Origin: Sphingorhabdus sp. 109 | GTDB lineage: Bacteria > Pseudomonadota > Alphaproteobacteria > Sphingomonadales > Sphingomonadaceae | Length of the DNA stretch: 64,000 nucleotides | Assembly (NCBI RefSeq): GCF_902506555.1 | Contig: NZ_LR732707.1 | Coordinates: 2,937,290 to 3,001,289, forward strand | Reading direction: 5' to 3' | Shown here: positions 10,360-16,592 of the stretch, piece after piece | Position numbering within the stretch: the first letter of the stretch is position 1 | How the letters are laid out: each line of letters opens with the position of its first letter | Translations under genes and position numbers: made by a program | The notes under the pieces: generated by a model | Seen by the model: the letters and a program-made list of their open reading frames with translations, nothing else | Database searches by the model: none | Told to the model about the DNA's origin: nothing

Positions 10360-10446
10360 GCCCAGATGGCGGAATTGGTAGACGCGCATGCTTCAGGTGC
10401 ATGTATTCGCAAGGATGTGGAGGTTCGAGTCCTCTTCTGGGCACCA
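10360..10446 (+). tRNA. tRNA-Leu (CAG)
   Basis: An 87-base class II tRNA with encoded CCA. The acceptor stem pairs GCCCAGA with TCTGGGC, the anticodon stem pairs CATGC with GCATG around the loop TTCAGGT (anticodon CAG), the variable arm is long, and the T arm contains GTTCGAGTC. Its 3' end is followed by an integrase remnant, consistent with use as an attachment site. Confidence 0.97.
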
Positions 10447-11027
10447 GATATACGTTCGCAAGTGTTCGTCAAAGCTTGCTAGAATACCGTAAAACTGCTA
10501 AAAATACTCCTCAAATGACCGTTGGCGTCCGCCCGTGTTCGTGTGCAATCGCGATCTTTCGGGGGCCACGTTGGGGCCATTGCTATGCGGACCGATAGGA
10601 GTGGTCCCCAGATGGCATTGACTGATACAGCAATTAAAGCGGCTAAACATGGCCCGAAACCGATCAAGCTTTTCGACGAAAGAGGGTTGTTCCAGTTGCT
10701 TCAACCTAGCGGGGGAAAGCTTTGGCGACTCAAATACCGGATAGCCGGACGTGACAAGCGGGCATATTTGCGTGCATCACTTTCGTCTTGATCCGGATAA
10801 CCATATTTGAGCCGGTAGTTAGCTGCGAGATTATCCGCAATGACAATGGCGCTGAAAACTCGGAGACGGACTGCCCTGCGCTACGCTCTGGTTCGGCCCG
10901 TGCATGGCTTTAACCGCAGTGCTCTTACTCGTGCACTGGACCAGCTACTGGGGGTTGGTCAGCTATGATTCCGTGCGGTGCAATCGGGCGATAGTTTCAG
11001 CATCGCGCAAAATTTTTCGGCACGCAC
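10447..11027. other. Integrated-element remnant region after tRNA-Leu
   Basis: This stretch holds the integrase fragment listed separately and no other clear gene. A 42-codon open frame at 10840-10968 (MTMALKTRRRTALRYALVRP) has no recognisable relative and no good ribosome site. I saw no second copy of the tRNA 3' end downstream, so the original element is largely gone. Confidence 0.5.
10612..10791 (+). pseudogene. Truncated phage-type tyrosine integrase (arm-binding N-terminus only)
   Basis: The frame begins with MALTDTAIKAAKHGPKPIKL and continues with a PSGGKLWRLKYRIAGRDK segment, the hallmark of the DUF4102 arm-binding domain at the start of P4-type integrases. A complete enzyme has about 400 residues with catalytic R-H-R-Y near the C-terminus; here the frame stops after 59 residues and no catalytic domain follows. 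It begins 165 bases after the tRNA-Leu 3' end in the orientation expected for an element integrated at that tRNA. It is almost certainly inactive. Confidence 0.85.
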
Positions 11028-11627
11028 CTATTCAGGATTGATCACCAGCATCAGCCGCTCCTCGCCAGTGCCTTCAATCGGCGGCGAGCGGTGGATGGCC
11101 GGGGCACGAGATGACCAGAGACGCCCCTTGAAAAGCGCTACATCGCCGGTTTGCATCTGCTGGATATTATGCGGCTCGCCACAATCGCAATCCGCGGTCT
11201 CGTCAATATCCAGCCATTGTGTACCCTGACCCGAATAGGTCGTGATCAGTCGCGCCTGGACATAATCGCTGTGAAATTTCTTGCAGGCATTGGTGGTGAT
11301 ATGCTCCAGCCGGATCTCGACGGCGTCGCTTTTCATGATCCCGGCAAAGCGGCTGGCCAGGCTGACAATGTCATCATGCAAGGCTTTTCGAAATCGGCCT
11401 TCTGCATAGCCCGCATCGGCCAGTGCATCGGCAAGCATTCCACCCAGTGCGCCGATATCCGATGTAAAACGGATATCGCTAATCTTATCCATATCGACGC
11501 TTGCCAGATCAATGGCGGGTTCGCGTTGCCAGAGGGCAATGGAGATATGCTCATCGCGGATGGCATCCAGGGCTTTGCTATATCCTTCAATCAGGGCAAT
11601 CGAACGGCGTTTTGCATCGACGGTCAT
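11028..11627 (-). CDS. DUF1826 protein of the zinc island
   Basis: 199 residues from the ATG at 11627 ([20 protein letters not shown]), which overlaps the upstream GTPase stop as ATGA and is preferred over a longer start inside that gene. The C-terminal part contains conserved-looking His, Cys and acidic residues ([31 protein letters not shown]) and a [15 protein letters not shown] ending typical of DUF1826. The family's biochemistry is unknown, but it is repeatedly found next to COG0523 zinc GTPases. Translational coupling with the GTPase and the shared upstream operator imply a role in zinc limitation, which is inference. Confidence 0.85.
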
Positions 11628-12859
11628 TCGGCCGGCTCCAGAACGGGCTGTGACCTTTCCCAGGCCGGGAAAGGGTCGGGCAGGGAAGACCATTGTTCCG
11701 GTGTAAAACCAGCGCTTGCCACCAGGCAGTCATCCAGTTCCCGGCGGATGCGCGCCTCTTCCATGCCAATGCCGATGAAAACGAGTTCCTGACGGCGGTC
11801 ACCCCAGGCCGGGTCCCAGTGTTTCATGACGAACTTCTCGAAACTTTCTTCTTCCGGCCATTGGTTCTTGGGAACCGCTGCCCACCAGCGGCCCAGACGT
11901 GCGGTGATCGTCTGGCTACCGGCTACGGCCAGCTCTCCCAGAAAATCGGGGCGTGTTGCGAGCCAGAAATGGCCCTTGGCGCGGATCACGTTATCGAGCC
12001 CGTTTTGCGTCAGGAAGTCATAGAAGCGGGCAGGATGAAACGGACGGCGGGCGCGGTAGACAAAACTCTCGACACCATATTCTTCCGATTTGGGGCGGTG
12101 GCTGTCATGATCATAAAGTTCTTTTGCCCAGAGAGGATGCGTTTCCGCCTTCTCCTCGTCAAAAAGACCGGTGTCGAGTATTTCGCCAAGATCGACACTG
12201 GCATAATCGGTTTCGATGATCCTGGCATCGGCATTGAGCGAGGCCACAACCTGTCTGACTACCGCCAGTTGAGCCGCTGAGACTTCGCTCGCTTTGTTGA
12301 TGATGACAACATCGGCAAATTCGATCTGTTCAACCAGCAGGCTGACCAGACGACGATCATCCCCTTCACCCGCGGTTTCGCCCCGGTCGGCAAGGAAGTC
12401 ATGGCTGGAATAATCGCTGAGAAGATTGATCGCATCCACGACAGTGACCATGCAATCCAGTCTGGCTGTATCCCCCAGGCATTGGCCGTCCTCGTCGCGA
12501 AAGGAAAAGGTGGCGGCCACCGGCAAGGGTTCGGATACCCCGGTGCTTTCAATGACGAGATAGTCAAACCGGCCCTCTTCGGAGAGTTTGCGCACTTCCA
12601 GAAGCAGGTCATCCCGCAAGGTACAGCAGATGCAGCCATTGGTCATTTCAACGAGGGTTTCTTCGGAGCGCGATAAAGCGGCCTCGCCGCCGCGCACCAG
12701 ATTCGCGTCGATATTTACCTCTGACATATCATTCACAATGACGGCCACCCGTTTGCCATCGCGATTGCCGAGAATATGGTTCAGCAGCGTGGTTTTGCCA
12801 GCTCCGAGGAAACCGGAGAGAACGGTGACGGGTAAAAGCGGGGTGAGAGCGGAATTCAT
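11624..12859 (-). CDS. COG0523 (CobW/P47K) family GTPase, putative zinc chaperone
   Basis: 411 residues from the ATG at 12859, which follows an AGAGG by eight bases; a TTG one codon earlier is less likely. The Walker A motif GFLGAGKTT lies near residues 16-24, the metal-binding GCICCT (CxCC) near residue 74, and a C-terminal CobW domain completes the protein. Members of this family insert or deliver zinc under starvation and are commonly Zur-repressed. An operator-like palindrome lies 23 bases upstream of the ATG. It heads a two-gene unit with the DUF1826 gene. Zinc rather than cobalt or iron is inferred from the neighbouring Zur and ABC genes. Confidence 0.92.
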
Positions 12860-12882
12860 CAAACTGGCCTCTTGCGAATCAT

Positions 12883-12900
12883 GTAATGTTGTATCATATC
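12883..12900. promoter_or_regulatory. Putative Zur operator in the COG0523-merC divergent region
   Basis: GTAATGTTGTATCATATC is an imperfect 18-bp palindrome. Its reverse complement matches 14 of 18 positions of the second site at 13759-13776. It lies 23 bases upstream of the GTPase start and 42 bases upstream of the MerC start, so one bound repressor could control both directions. Assignment to Zur rests on the adjacent Fur-family gene and on the AT-rich dyad form. Confidence 0.65.
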
Positions 12901-12942
12901 ATCTATGAACTAAGTTTGACCCTCCGAATCCGCAAGGAAAAT

Positions 12943-13344
12943 ATGACCATGTCGCCGCAATATGCCAACCGGATCGAAACATCCGCTCTGTTTCTGTCGG
13001 GCCTGTGTGTTGTCCATTGCATCGGGCTTCCACTGCTTTTCCTTGTCGTGCCTGTGTTTGCGAATGTCTTTGCCTTTCCGGATGCATTCCATGCCTACGC
13101 ATTGCTGCTGGCCGTTCCCCTGAGCCTGACATCGTTGATATATGGCGCAAGCCAGCACAGGTCGTTCACACCACTGGCAATCGGCACCTTCGGACTTTTG
13201 CTCATGGCGGTCGCGCTGAGTGAAAAATATCACCACGCGGAAGTCATCTTGACCCTGTTGGGTGCCAGTTCTGTGGCTCTGGCCCATCTTTCCAATTGGA
13301 GACGGCGCACGCGGTGTGCTGTTGCACCTGGTGGCCGGAATTGA
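12943..13344 (+). CDS. MerC-family membrane protein
   Basis: 133 residues from the ATG at 12943, preceded by AAGGAA; a second ATG two codons later is possible. It has four predicted membrane segments and the CVVHCIGLPLL motif near residue 17, with the paired cysteines of the MerC family. MerC proteins carry mercuric ions in mer operons, but solitary copies near Zur genes suggest zinc or another soft metal. It is divergent from the COG0523 gene and runs directly into the Fur-family regulator, so the pair likely forms one operon. Confidence 0.85.
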   Translation: MTMSPQYANRIETSALFLSGLCVVHCIGLPLLFLVVPVFANVFAFPDAFHAYALLLAVPLSLTSLIYGASQHRSFTPLAIGTFGLLLMAVALSEKYHHAEVILTLLGASSVALAHLSNWRRRTRCAVAPGGRN

Positions 13345-13712
13345 AACGACGGAAAGCCTTTGCTGTCGACCAGCAGGTCGAGAAAATCCTGCTGCAATGC
13401 ACCAGGCCCATTGGTGCCTATCAGATAGCGGAGAGGCTGCCAAAGGTCGCAACCACGCAGGTCTATCGGGCGCTGGAGCGCCTGATCGCCAAGGACAGGG
13501 CAAGGCGGATCAACGCGCGTAACCGCTTCGTCGCGATATCGGCCGATACCGATCTGATCGCCATTTGCAGCAAATGCGATGAATTCCAATTGCTGGAATG
13601 TCCCGATTTTGTCAGTGGTCTGGCGAATCTTTGCGACAGCCGGGCGTTCCGGATCAGGGAGATATGTCTGGAAATGGCCGGGACGTGCCGAAATTGCCAT
13701 AACGGAGAGTAA
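13341..13712 (+). CDS. zur: Fur-family transcriptional regulator, probable Zur
   Basis: About 123 residues if translation begins at the TTG at 13341, which overlaps the merC stop (TTGA) and follows CCGGAA; an ATG at 13296 would add 15 residues unlike the family. The winged-helix region reads IGAYQIAERLPKVATTQVYRALERL. Two CxxC pairs, CSKC near residue 60 and CRNC near the C-terminus, would form the structural zinc site. Gene context (COG0523, MerC, zinc-type ABC genes) argues for Zur rather than Fur or PerR. It probably senses zinc and represses the two operator-bearing promoters here. Confidence 0.88.
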   Translation: MKRRKAFAVDQQVEKILLQCTRPIGAYQIAERLPKVATTQVYRALERLIAKDRARRINARNRFVAISADTDLIAICSKCDEFQLLECPDFVSGLANLCDSRAFRIREICLEMAGTCRNCHNGE

Positions 13713-13744
13713 TGTTTCGCCGGTCCCGACCGGATCAATTTCGC

Positions 13745-13783
13745 TTGAATGGTCTTTAGTTATGATGTATCATTACATGAATG
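13745..13783 (+). promoter_or_regulatory. Predicted promoter giving a leaderless mRNA
   Basis: TTGAAT (13745-13750) and TATCAT (13768-13773) are spaced by 17 bases and fit a sigma-70 promoter, placing the transcription start at about 13780-13781, exactly the ATG of the next gene. A stop codon at 13778-13780 excludes an earlier start in frame and there is no ribosome site between operator and ATG. The -10 lies inside the putative Zur operator, which would make repression direct. Confidence 0.5.
13759..13776. promoter_or_regulatory. Putative Zur operator of the ABC operon
   Basis: GTTATGATGTATCATTAC is a near-perfect 18-bp palindrome ending four bases before the start codon at 13781. It shares 14 of 18 positions with the inverted site at 12883-12900, and both flank the merC-zur genes. 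It overlaps the predicted -10 hexamer. Confidence 0.7.
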
Positions 13784-14119
13784 TTCCTGCGTCATTCCAT
13801 TCTTTTTGCAGCAATGCTGAGCTTTGGCTTTCCCGCGCATGCATGCAGTCTCGAGGGCGGATTTGACATGCACCGGTTCAACCCATTCCAGACGATGCAG
13901 TCCGATCCAACCGACCGGTTTCGGAATGACGCGCGTAACCAGAATACCATCGGTCCCGTGCAGCTGAAAACGCCGGTTGCAAAGGAGCCGGACAACGCCA
14001 GTCAGCCGACTGAACAAATGGTGCCTGTCATGTCGAATATAAACGACCAGGGGGCTACAATAGAGGCCAATCCGCGCCAAGACGGCGGATTGCCGGCCGA
14101 CAGGACGACGTTTCACTAG
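13781..14119 (+). CDS. Small exported protein of unknown function, first gene of the zinc ABC operon
   Basis: 112 residues. A signal peptide (MFLRHSILFAAMLSFGFPAHA) is followed by CSLEGGFDMHRFNPFQTM and a low-complexity, Gln/Asn/Pro-rich tail with few hydrophobic residues. I do not recognise a family. It occupies the position where related loci in Vibrio and Pseudomonas carry a DUF2796 periplasmic protein (ZrgA, PA4063), yet it is much shorter and lacks a histidine-rich stretch. It ends four bases before the ATPase gene. A periplasmic accessory role in metal capture is a guess from position only. Confidence 0.75.
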   Translation: MFLRHSILFAAMLSFGFPAHACSLEGGFDMHRFNPFQTMQSDPTDRFRNDARNQNTIGPVQLKTPVAKEPDNASQPTEQMVPVMSNINDQGATIEANPRQDGGLPADRTTFH

Positions 14120-14123
14120 TTCC

Positions 14124-14777
14124 ATGGTAATCAAAATCGAAAATCTAGACTATGCCATCAGAGGGAAGCCCCTGTTCGAAGGATTTTCGCTTTCGGTCGA
14201 GGCACAAAGCCATCATCTTCTGGTGGGGCCGTCGGGATCGGGGAAAACAACACTCATCAATCTGGTCTGCGGCCTGCTGTCTCCAGATCATGGCGAGATC
14301 AGAGTGGCGGGCGAGAATATAGCTGCCGCTTCCGAAAGCGGGCGCGATAAAATCCGCCGCGAAAATATCGGGATGGTGTTCCAGACGTTGCGTCTGGTTT
14401 CGGCGCTGGACTTGTCCGCCAATCTCTTGCTGGCCCAGCGACTGGCACGGGGTAGCACCGACGGGTCCCTGATCCACTCTCTTCTCGAGCGGCTGGGTAT
14501 CGGCCATCGAGCGCGGGCAAAGCCGCACGAAATGAGCCAGGGCGAAGCACAGCGGGCGGCAATCGCCCGGGCGCTGGTTACACGGCCGCGGTTGCTGATC
14601 GCCGACGAGCCGACGTCCTCCCTCGATAAGAGCAATGCCCGCCAGGTCGCGGATCTCTTGCTGGAATGCGCTGCGGACTATGGGGTCACCTTGCTGATCG
14701 CCACCCACGACGACCGGCTGGACCCGCTTTTCTCCAATCGTATCGCTCTGACCGGGCCTGTGGCAAAGGTGGCCTGA
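14124..14777 (+). CDS. ABC transporter ATP-binding protein (LolD/MacB-like, zinc island)
   Basis: 217 residues with Walker A GPSGSGKTT near residue 36, a Q-loop near residue 88, the signature MSQGEAQR near 136 (variant of LSGGQ), Walker B LLIADEP near 158 and the H-loop ATHDD near 193. This resembles ATPases that work with FtsX/MacB-type permeases rather than ZnuC. It is followed after four bases by such a permease. In the ZrgABCDE (V. cholerae) and PA4063-4066 (P. aeruginosa) loci the equivalent gene is zinc-repressed and supports zinc uptake; the same role here is inference. Confidence 0.93.
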   Translation: MVIKIENLDYAIRGKPLFEGFSLSVEAQSHHLLVGPSGSGKTTLINLVCGLLSPDHGEIRVAGENIAAASESGRDKIRRENIGMVFQTLRLVSALDLSANLLLAQRLARGSTDGSLIHSLLERLGIGHRARAKPHEMSQGEAQRAAIARALVTRPRLLIADEPTSSLDKSNARQVADLLLECAADYGVTLLIATHDDRLDPLFSNRIALTGPVAKVA

Positions 14778-14781
14778 CCCG

Positions 14782-16077
14782 ATGTTCGGACTTGCTCTTG
14801 CCTATCTGCGGGATCGCAGCCTGACCACAGCGCTCAATGTCCTTCTGTTGGGCATATCGGTTGCGATGTTGGTTCTGCTGGTGCAATTTGCCAATCAGTT
14901 TTCAAACCGCCTGGACCGGGATGCAGAAAATGTGGATCTGGTTGTAGGTGCCAAAGGGTCACCGCTGCAGCTTATCCTTTCGAGCATTTTTCATATCGAC
15001 CAGCCGACCGGTAATATCCCGCTTGAAAGCCTCGCTATGGTGCGAAGCGACCCGGCCGTCAAAGAGGCGATCCCGCTGGCGCTCGGAGACAATTTTGACG
15101 GCTTCCGTATCGTCGGAACGGAGGCAGGCTATGCCCGTCTATATGGCGGTGAAATCGCGCGGGGCAAAATGTTCGAAAAGCCGATGGATGCGGTTATGGG
15201 CGCGTCGGTAGCGAGAACAACCGGCGCGCAGCTTGGCCAGAAATTCATTGGCAGCCATGGACTTGAAACCGCCGAAGGCGATGGGCAGGGGCACGATCAC
15301 GCGCCCTTTACCACCGTTGGCATCTTGGCGCCAACCGGCAGTGTCATCGACCGGCTTATCCTGACGTCGATCGAGAGCATCTGGGACGTGCACGGCATAG
15401 AGCATGATCATGCTGAAACGGATCATGCCGATCACGAGGCCGCAGATCACGAAGCAGAGGAGTATAGTCATGGATCCGGCCATGAATTGGACGAACAACA
15501 GCACGCCCTGTCCGCACAGGGGCATCTGGAACCGGAAATAACCGCGATACTGCTACGCTATCGCAATGCGGCTGGCGCAATGCGCATCCCTGCGATGATC
15601 AACCGCCAGACTGAAATGCAAGCGGCATCGCCCGCAGCGGAAACCGCGCGCTTGCTATCCCTCTTTGGTGCCGGAATAGAGGGTGCACGTATATTCGCCT
15701 GGATACTTGCGGTCACCGGTGGTCTTGCCATTTTCATAGCCTTGCTGAACATGGCGCGGGCACGGGAAGGCGACCTCGCTCTCTTGCGAGTCATGGGCGC
15801 CAGCAAGCTTCAGGTGTTCGGCACGATATTACTGGAAGGCCTGATGACAGCGGCCTCGGGCGCCATCCTGGGCATCATTGGCGCGCATCTGGCGCTCTTG
15901 CTGGCCGGCCGCAATTTCCAGACATTGAGTGATCTCGGAATCAGTGCAACGCGATTCGACCCTGCCGAACTTGCAATCTTCGCAACGGTCCTCCTGATTG
16001 GCGCTATCGCCGCGCTTATTCCCGCTGCGCGCATTTTCCGCATCAACCTGGCGCTTACACTCGCCCGATCATCATGA
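14782..16077 (+). CDS. FtsX/MacB-like ABC permease with histidine-rich periplasmic loop
   Basis: 431 residues: one N-terminal membrane segment (about 15-38), a large extracytoplasmic domain, then three C-terminal segments (about 300-430), as in MacB/LolE-type permeases. Residues about 203-248 contain ten histidines mixed with Asp and Glu (for example HDHAETDHADHEAADHEAEE), and a smaller cluster GQGHDHAPF lies near 170. This is a likely metal-binding loop. Paired with the preceding ATPase. Such permeases normally move lipids or mechanically work on periplasmic partners, so direct ion transport should not be assumed; the family context nonetheless points to zinc acquisition. Confidence 0.9.
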   Translation: MFGLALAYLRDRSLTTALNVLLLGISVAMLVLLVQFANQFSNRLDRDAENVDLVVGAKGSPLQLILSSIFHIDQPTGNIPLESLAMVRSDPAVKEAIPLALGDNFDGFRIVGTEAGYARLYGGEIARGKMFEKPMDAVMGASVARTTGAQLGQKFIGSHGLETAEGDGQGHDHAPFTTVGILAPTGSVIDRLILTSIESIWDVHGIEHDHAETDHADHEAADHEAEEYSHGSGHELDEQQHALSAQGHLEPEITAILLRYRNAAGAMRIPAMINRQTEMQAASPAAETARLLSLFGAGIEGARIFAWILAVTGGLAIFIALLNMARAREGDLALLRVMGASKLQVFGTILLEGLMTAASGAILGIIGAHLALLLAGRNFQTLSDLGISATRFDPAELAIFATVLLIGAIAALIPAARIFRINLALTLARSS

Positions 16078-16085
16078 GGCCCCCG

Positions 16086-16592
16086 ATGAAAATTCTTTAT
16101 GCCCTCATCCTTGCATCAGCAACGTTCCTGCCCGCTGCATCCGCATCCTCGGCGATGCAAAACGGCGGCAAGGTGCCGGCAGATGATGTATGGAAGCCTG
16201 CCAGGACTCCCAAGGGCGGGGTGTCGTGGGCTGTGCTGGAATCGACGAAGGAAAAAACGCGTACCGGGAAGGATGGCTATATCTATTCGAAACCGCTGTT
16301 CTCACCGGCGGTAAAATCCCTCGCCGGCAAGCGGATAAAGGTCGCCGGCTGGATGACCCCGCTGGAGCAAGGTGCCCGGCAGAAAAGATTCGTGTTGCTG
16401 GCCTACCCGCCCGGCTGCCCTTTCCATTTTCACGCAATGCCAAACCAGTTCATCGAGGTGCTCGCCGACATTCCCTTTCCCACCGATGAAAGAAAAATAC
16501 ATGTCGTCAGCGGCATATTGGAACTGACCGGCCAGGATGAAAGCGGAATATTCTACCGGTTGAAAGCGGCAAGTCCTGCCGGTTCCAAATGA
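16086..16592 (+). CDS. DUF3299-family exported protein
   Basis: 168 residues from the ATG at 16086, which has GAGG six bases upstream; an ATG at 16074 overlapping the permease stop is also possible. A signal peptide (MKILYALILASATFLPAASA) precedes a domain with GWMTPLEQGARQKRFVLL and PPGCPFHFHAMPNQFIEV, whose Cys and His residues could bind metal. DUF3299 proteins are the fourth member (ZrgD, PA4066) of zinc-regulated ABC loci. It closes the operon. Confidence 0.87.
   Translation: MKILYALILASATFLPAASASSAMQNGGKVPADDVWKPARTPKGGVSWAVLESTKEKTRTGKDGYIYSKPLFSPAVKSLAGKRIKVAGWMTPLEQGARQKRFVLLAYPPGCPFHFHAMPNQFIEVLADIPFPTDERKIHVVSGILELTGQDESGIFYRLKAASPAGSK

Follow-up and report, generated by a model that had tools for sequence, protein, structure and literature searches.

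The closest described relatives of the gene cluster reported here are the ZrgABCDE system of Vibrio cholerae and V. parahaemolyticus and the PA4063-PA4066 genes of Pseudomonas aeruginosa, which share a core order of ATPase, permease and DUF3299 genes. The zrg operon of V. cholerae is described as aiding growth in low zinc (PMC9820375), and zrg and PA4063-4066 have been read in several reports as providing a zinc-binding protein for import (PMC9820375, PMC8561739, PMC9817125), while the function of these systems is still disputed between zinc import and metallophore export. We have analysed a stretch of 64,000 nucleotides ("the window") from the 3.6 Mb genome of Sphingorhabdus sp. 109 (contig NZ_LR732707.1, positions 2,937,290 to 3,001,289), in which an island of eight genes at 11028..16592 surrounds a core of this type. 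The interpretation that we favour, though we hold it at somewhat less than even strength, is that the island serves in zinc starvation under repression by Zur, that its core is a sister variant of the Zrg (PA4064-4066) machine which lacks ZrgA, and that a MerC-family protein is the conduit for zinc. The parts of this interpretation that the sequences support are the predicted Zur sites, the gene linkage, the lack of matches to ZrgA, ZnuA, ZnuB and ZIP, the His-rich permease loop and a set of invariant residues predicted to be periplasmic; from these we infer how the complex might take part in transport.

The position and gene content of the island had been given in an initial annotation made from the letters and open reading frames alone, and both the profile matches and the open frames agree with it. 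The DUF1826 and COG0523 genes are read leftward, and those for the MerC, Fur-like and small exported proteins, the ATPase, the permease and the DUF3299 protein rightward. The last four genes are spaced by 4 bp, 4 bp and then a 4-bp overlap, and their lying within a few bases of each other suggests one transcript. Two relatives, L033 (permease 82% identical) and L138, have retained the full set of eight. The features are as follows, in window coordinates.

11028..11627, minus strand: DUF1826 protein (PF08856, E 1.3e-45); 4-bp overlap with the end of the COG0523 gene
11624..12862, minus strand: COG0523 GTPase close to ZigA (cobW 5e-52, CobW_C 4e-24)
12882..12901, between the divergent COG0523 and MerC genes: Zur-box-like palindrome TGTAATGTTGTATCATATCA (23.3 bits, 0 pattern mismatches)
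12943..13344, plus strand: MerC-family small membrane protein with a C-x-x-H-C motif near its N-terminus (PF03203, E 5.8e-24)
13296..13712, plus strand: Fur-like protein; start codon uncertain, the first in-frame TTG (13296) lying inside the MerC gene
13745..13773, plus strand: promoter-like hexamers TTGAAT-17-TATCAT from a consensus scan, the second hexamer within a Zur box
13758..13777, 3 bp before the ATG of the small gene: Zur-box-like palindrome AGTTATGATGTATCATTACA (18.2 bits, 1 mismatch)
13781..14119, plus strand: small exported protein, 112 residues, with a predicted mature N-terminus CSLEG after AHA
14124..14777, plus strand: ABC (ATP-binding cassette) ATPase of the FtsE/LolD/MacB class (PF00005, 2e-32)
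14782..16077, plus strand: FtsX/MacB_PCD permease with His159, His171, Asp190 and His204 (PF02687, PF12704)
15397..15531, plus strand: His-rich loop of the permease, residues 206-250 (9 His in 45 residues)
16074..16592, plus strand: DUF3299 protein, OB-like fold predicted (PF11736, 26.5 bits against a cut-off of 22)

The profile searches that the initial annotation had proposed for DUF3299 and COG0523 thus bear out both assignments. The zinc theme that it had read into the island is well supported too, the Zur sites and the response to zinc being predicted. A palindrome pattern scanned over the whole genome, with at most two mismatches allowed, was found at seven places in the forward direction and at none when read backwards. 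Two of the seven belong to the island, three precede a merC-zur pair, a tonB gene after gltX and a gene for a TonB-dependent receptor, and the remaining two are taken as chance because of their neighbours. A Zur matrix made from the three non-island sites, which were chosen for their neighbours, ranks the two island boxes first and second in the 64 kb, with third place at 11.0 bits. Of 36 related loci (a set that includes L067 and L068, which are not of the island permease type), 18 have a site of at least 12 bits by this matrix in the 1 kb before the ATPase gene, compared with none of 35 downstream control stretches, L056 having no such stretch. The second island box holds a -10-like hexamer, and in Caulobacter, according to PMC4176598, the Zur operators likewise overlap -10 regions. 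The promoter scan of the region yielded 4 hits against 2.5 expected, so that TTGAAT-17-TATCAT is weak evidence when taken alone. Within 13745-13781 the -10-like hexamer stands only 7 bases from the ATG of the small gene, and the operon may therefore start with a leaderless message. The genome's own merC-zur pair (L080, 4399-5314) has a Zur-like site in front of it, so that both zur and a MerC gene are probably under repression by Zur. The open-licence literature gave no match joining a Zur regulon with the Sphingomonadales, and two papers in which DUF3299 and zinc occur together.

The order of ATPase, permease and DUF3299 genes is that of the Zrg and PA4063-4066 systems, as had been proposed, and the DUF2796 protein usual in those systems is indeed missing: the ZrgA profile (DUF2796, PF10986) matched neither the small protein, whose clear membership in DUF2796 had been named as grounds for abandoning the proposal, nor any other protein of the genome. 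DUF2607 was unmatched among the island proteins, and both ZrgA and DUF2607 were rejected as identities for the small protein. Searches for the classical importers found no genome match to ABC-3 (ZnuB) permeases, ZIP proteins or ZnuA (the cluster A-I binding protein), P-type ATPases and CorA-like channels lying outside these searches. Over 55 genomes the ABC-3 search matched 29, only two of them strongly (E <1e-60), and the weak matches are read as related permeases of the siderophore/B12 type.

Of 396 genomes in the order, 129 matched the island permease as a query at E 1e-3 and 36, the genome of the window included, at E <1e-20; the 36 loci fetched came from 35 of the latter genomes and from one with a weaker match (G010), whose locus L068 is not a real member. 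ZrgA is unmatched in 36 of the 37 permease-bearing genomes of the Sphingomonadales, and the permease of the one that does match (G014) has no His loop, like the ZrgA-linked permeases. In a sample of the phylum, 65 of 398 genomes have ZrgA above the cut-off. The best 80 of 590 relatives on GTDB contigs belong above all to Bacteroidota, and otherwise to Sphingomonadaceae, Phenylobacterium, several Beta- and Gammaproteobacteria and a few other phyla; the stretch fetched with the permease holds both ATPase and DUF3299 genes in 79 of these 80 and ZrgA in none. Triads without ZrgA are spread over Alpha-, Beta- and Gammaproteobacteria and Bacteroidota, so that the arrangement stands as the distinct variant that had been suspected and is too widespread to be peculiar to this genome. 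In the tree the island permease falls outside the ZrgA-linked clade, in a separate clade, while a profile of 30 rows (A1), one of them from a ZrgA locus, matches ZrgA-linked permeases at about 1e-100, as expected of a homologue of ZrgB. Permeases of less than 60% identity were found in 94 plasmid records, with no sphingomonad among the matches listed (the best 20 of 94). A second ATPase-permease-DUF3299 set occurs in a ZrgA-bearing genome (L285 of G461), with no ZrgA within the 7 kb fetched. In a distant clade (L248-L252, L257 and L258) the paired ATPase and permease genes are preceded by one for a DUF3299-type protein, which in L248 and L258 contains CPFC for CPFH; Thr76 of the permease is replaced by Leu in this clade.

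The initial annotation had also held that the His-rich stretch of the permease takes the place of ZrgA, and the counts uphold it. Histidines were counted between permease residues 206 and 250 in 93 of the 96 phylum genomes with a permease (the partial matches of G650, G661 and G713 being set aside, and the L285 copy of G461 being unmeasured), and with a threshold of at least 4 His, set after the data had been seen, a loop is present in none of 63 ZrgA-bearing genomes (maximum 2; one of these, G576, is cut off and has no readable loop) as against 19 of 30 ZrgA-less genomes (one of the 19, G671, being partly masked). Fisher's test, with kinship ignored, gives p 2e-12. On a tree of 90 rows, built without the incomplete G576, G671 and G410, ten changes of the loop label are required, nine of them forced by starred branches, and the ZrgA-less His-loop permeases of G745, G652 and G660 nest within the ZrgA clade on such branches. 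A kinship-corrected test was run on a quicker tree made without the loop columns, with 200 pairings of four independent contrasts, where at least six would be required for p <0.05; on average 2.7 of the four (2 or 3 each time) went as predicted, none was opposed and the rest showed no difference. The mutual exclusion of loop and ZrgA is striking, though its repeated origin rests on three cases, and the His-rich stretch is probably zinc-binding. A universal His loop was rejected, many permeases being without it; G640 has neither ZrgA nor loop. The permease of G410 is split over two frames, and while the alignment used for the loop count shows no His for it, other readings show six. Two ZrgA-less permeases carry extreme loops (L256, 44 His in 134 residues; L260, 34 in 130).

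Beside the loop, the permeases share a small set of residues that hardly varies. Of 143 permeases of less than 90% identity, aligned without L068, 142 have His159, His171 and His204 (the exception being L225) and all 143 have Asp190; apart from the three histidines, no column reaches 90% His. The set is common to permeases with and without ZrgA and absent from the outgroup row L068; on this pattern of conservation it is likely to be a metal site. By profile, the nearest solved relatives of the permease are LolF, an ABC permease (5xu1), MacB, YtrF, LolC/LolE and FtsX, the Lol and FtsX matches covering its C-terminal membrane part. LolF, MacB, LolC/E and FtsX do their work on the periplasmic side (see also PMC11481552), and the grouping of the island permease with them would place zinc capture in the periplasm and passage through the membrane elsewhere. 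An ion pore is not known from a MacB-type permease, nor is any of the nearest solved relatives known to pass ions. The best NCBIfam matches of the ATPase are DevA, FtsE and LolD, all under their cut-offs. The AlphaFold2 model of the DUF3299 protein, which is of good confidence (mean pLDDT 85), has as its best Foldseek match 4hsp (PA4066; E 3.6e-4, with a TM-score of only 0.40-0.45) and otherwise matches OB-fold domains; the family has a conserved Cys and His within the motif CPxH.

MerC proteins are known for mercury. MerC is found in 36 of the 37 permease-bearing genomes, and in 16 of the 37 it lies within 3 kb of the permease, compared with 0.11 expected; the genome's second MerC gene adjoins zur. 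At eight Pedobacter loci the COG0523 gene faces MerC-ATPase-permease-DUF3299, with MerC between COG0523 and the ATPase. The locus of Erythrobacter longus DSM 6997 (L142) likewise combines ATPase, permease and DUF3299 genes with a MerC gene close by, and no small gene was found there. MerC is the best-linked candidate for membrane passage. The COG0523 protein scores 583.8 bits over the full NCBIfam model of ZigA (NF038288; cut-off 600), and the only other cobW match in the genome is short and weak.

The 112-residue protein that leads the operon, unfamiliar in the initial annotation, belongs to no Pfam or NCBIfam family, and the profile of its own family has no PDB match; as a general substitute for ZrgA it was rejected, similar small genes being found in 18 of 37 loci. 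In 17 of these the gene directly precedes that of the ATPase, and in L046 it lies on the opposite strand beside DUF3299. An alignment of 13 rows of the small family, searched against the 396 order genomes, matched 16, 13 of which were its own sources; 15 of the 16 have the permease, and G153 is without it. Among 25 distinct members (the matches of the family search together with the window's own protein), 24 have AxA-like residues followed by a Cys at predicted mature position 1; each of these 24 has Asp, Glu, His or Cys as predicted mature residue 4, and 23 of them have no second cysteine in the mature part. L063, which came from other searches for the small gene, has the Cys stretch too. By eye, the cleavage region of the 24 has Ala, Val, Thr or Ser at -3, Ala at -1, and His, Met or Gln at -2 in eight of them. 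This is the -3/-1 pattern of signal peptidase I, whose cleavage would leave a free N-terminal cysteine. A lipoprotein identity was rejected, the lipobox not being conserved (by eye), though four or more members would pass a loose lipobox. The small protein of L138 (5037-5336) has lost the signal-cleavage and cysteine stretch. None of the open-licence papers listed for it contains the phrase "mature N-terminal cysteine".

The Fur/Zur-type regulator of the initial annotation is Fur-like, though remotely so (Pfam FUR E 0.18; NCBIfam Zur 4e-6), and degenerate as a regulator of the Zur type. The protein keeps structural site A as two CxxC motifs (C78, C81, C118 and C121 of the aligned stretch), while its alignments have no His or Cys matching His77, Cys88 and His96 of E. 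coli Zur, which are three of the four ligands of regulatory site B (His77, Cys88, His96 and Glu111, as given in PMC4219657), and zinc sensing in the usual way is therefore unlikely. The canonical zur is the merC-linked gene elsewhere in the genome. A paralogue with the structural and not the sensing site thus sits inside the predicted Zur regulon, in L033 as well, and under starvation it might weaken the action of Zur or take its place.

Just upstream of the island lie a tRNA-Leu(CAG) gene (10360-10446) and a 59-codon fragment (10612-10791) with an integrase arm-binding domain (PF13356, 1.6e-9), likely the remnant of an integration event. No island boundary could be drawn through this tRNA, no tRNA-Leu having been found in the scanned stretches of 16 relatives.

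In the interpretation that we favour, Zur would leave both island sites when zinc falls, and the ATPase and the FtsX/MacB-type permease would form a mechanotransmission complex whose ATP-driven movements do periplasmic work. The permease loop would gather zinc near the complex, as ZrgA loops may do elsewhere, and the His159/His171/Asp190/His204 set would be the working metal site, with the small protein, through its N-terminal Cys-x-x-Glu, and the DUF3299 protein as periplasmic partners that bring or take zinc. Zinc released at the membrane would then have a conduit of its own into the cytoplasm, for which the linked MerC protein is the most likely candidate, and the COG0523 protein would deliver the metal within the cell. 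The role of conduit is given to MerC because a MacB-type permease is not known as an ion pore and no classical importer was matched. Carried over to bacteria without ZnuABC and ZIP in general, the idea becomes a good deal more speculative, and we think it rather improbable in its full form: an ATP-driven mechanotransmission complex with a His-rich sponge and a His3-Asp site would hand zinc to a MerC-family channel, aided by an exported protein chelating zinc with its free N-terminal Cys, and a Fur paralogue without the sensing site would modulate Zur when zinc is scarce.

Several observations weigh against this interpretation. In 19 of the 37 genomes no MerC gene lies closer to the permease than 10 kb, and 19 of the 37 loci yielded no small protein. 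The loop is not universal, since fewer than 4 His are counted in 11 of the 30 permeases without ZrgA and likewise in many from Bacteroidota; its exclusion with ZrgA is not significant once corrected for the tree (p 0.25); and the His-rich loop of ZrgA is reported as dispensable for growth of V. cholerae (PMC9820375), so that such a loop need not be a working part. Moreover, genetics and modelling in P. aeruginosa have led to the argument that PA4064/4065 are an exporter (PMC11481552). By extension the island complex could be a MacB-like exporter of a metallophore, free or in complex with metal, as PA4063-4066 has been proposed to be for pyochelin-cobalt, with its His-rich loop recognising the metal; the FtsX and MacB_PCD domains of the permease and the predicted Zur sites at the genes for the TonB-dependent receptor and tonB would suit this role. 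We nevertheless consider it unlikely, since the V. cholerae data are read as zinc import (PMC9820375), a periplasmic zinc sponge is an odd need for export from the cytoplasm, and the ten open reading frames scanned (the rest of the genome was not searched) contain no domain of a MacA-type adaptor or outer-membrane channel. The present data do not decide between the published readings of zinc import and pyochelin-cobalt export.

A little less probable still is a true importer without a separate binding protein, in which the permease would both bind zinc by its loop and let it through the membrane: the loop does occur where the zinc-binding protein is missing, and the genome matches neither ZnuABC nor ZIP, but the nearest solved relatives of the permease are not known to pass ions. 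The profile matches to Lol and FtsX permeases could also point to a complex like LolCDE or FtsEX that remodels or repairs the envelope (for example the cell wall, or in the handling of lipoproteins) when zinc enzymes fail, metal binding then being regulatory; we regard this proposal as improbable, given the His-rich loop and the invariant His set, which speak for the handling of metal, and given the linkage to MerC, COG0523 and Zur sites. Least probable of all, and in our judgement quite doubtful, is that the small protein, the loop and the Fur-like protein are drifting, functionless leftovers of a horizontally acquired island, as the upstream tRNA-Leu and integrase fragment and the degenerate Fur-like protein might suggest; the frames are open, the Zur sites match those predicted elsewhere in the host, and L033 and L138 retain all eight genes.

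The interpretation of the island as a ZrgA-less, Zur-controlled variant gives it a use in the dispute over the Zrg and PA4063-4066 systems. Such a variant isolates the constant core, in which the permease often has a metal-binding-type loop of its own and the HHDH set is common to both variants, and here the core sits in a genome without known zinc-importer matches, so that a deletion should give a clear answer. The island also links MerC proteins to zinc starvation. The carriage of the loop within the permease is a widespread, though little-studied, alternative to a separate carrier protein.

Compared with ZrgABCDE, the island has the same ATPase, FtsX/MacB-type permease and DUF3299 protein under (here predicted) Zur control, but it has no match to ZrgA or DUF2607 and bears its His-rich stretch in a permease from outside the ZrgA-linked clade; it is led by a small protein with a predicted N-terminal Cys, and MerC, COG0523 and DUF1826 genes adjoin it. 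With PA4063-PA4066 it shares the core order and a DUF3299 protein whose model best matches PA4066, whereas a counterpart of PA4063 (DUF2796) was not matched and the His loop is found in 0 of 63 permeases of ZrgA-bearing genomes. The FtsX and MacB_PCD domains of its permease are those of the mechanotransmission class of MacB, LolCDE and FtsEX, from which it differs in a separate ATPase gene, in the invariant HHDH set and in that no adaptor gene was found in the island. It is unlike ZnuABC, whose ABC-3 permease and cluster A-I binding protein have no match in the genome. The znuGHI system of Caulobacter crescentus is, like the island as predicted here, a Zur-repressed ABC system of an alphaproteobacterium, but is annotated in PMC4176598 as of the ABC-2 and not the FtsX type. 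Finally, the Zur-regulated COG0523 clusters with DUF1826 that are described in PMC2770081 resemble the island in having these two genes near a Zur site; in the island, unlike those clusters as described there, the pair is set beside MerC and a core of the Zrg type.

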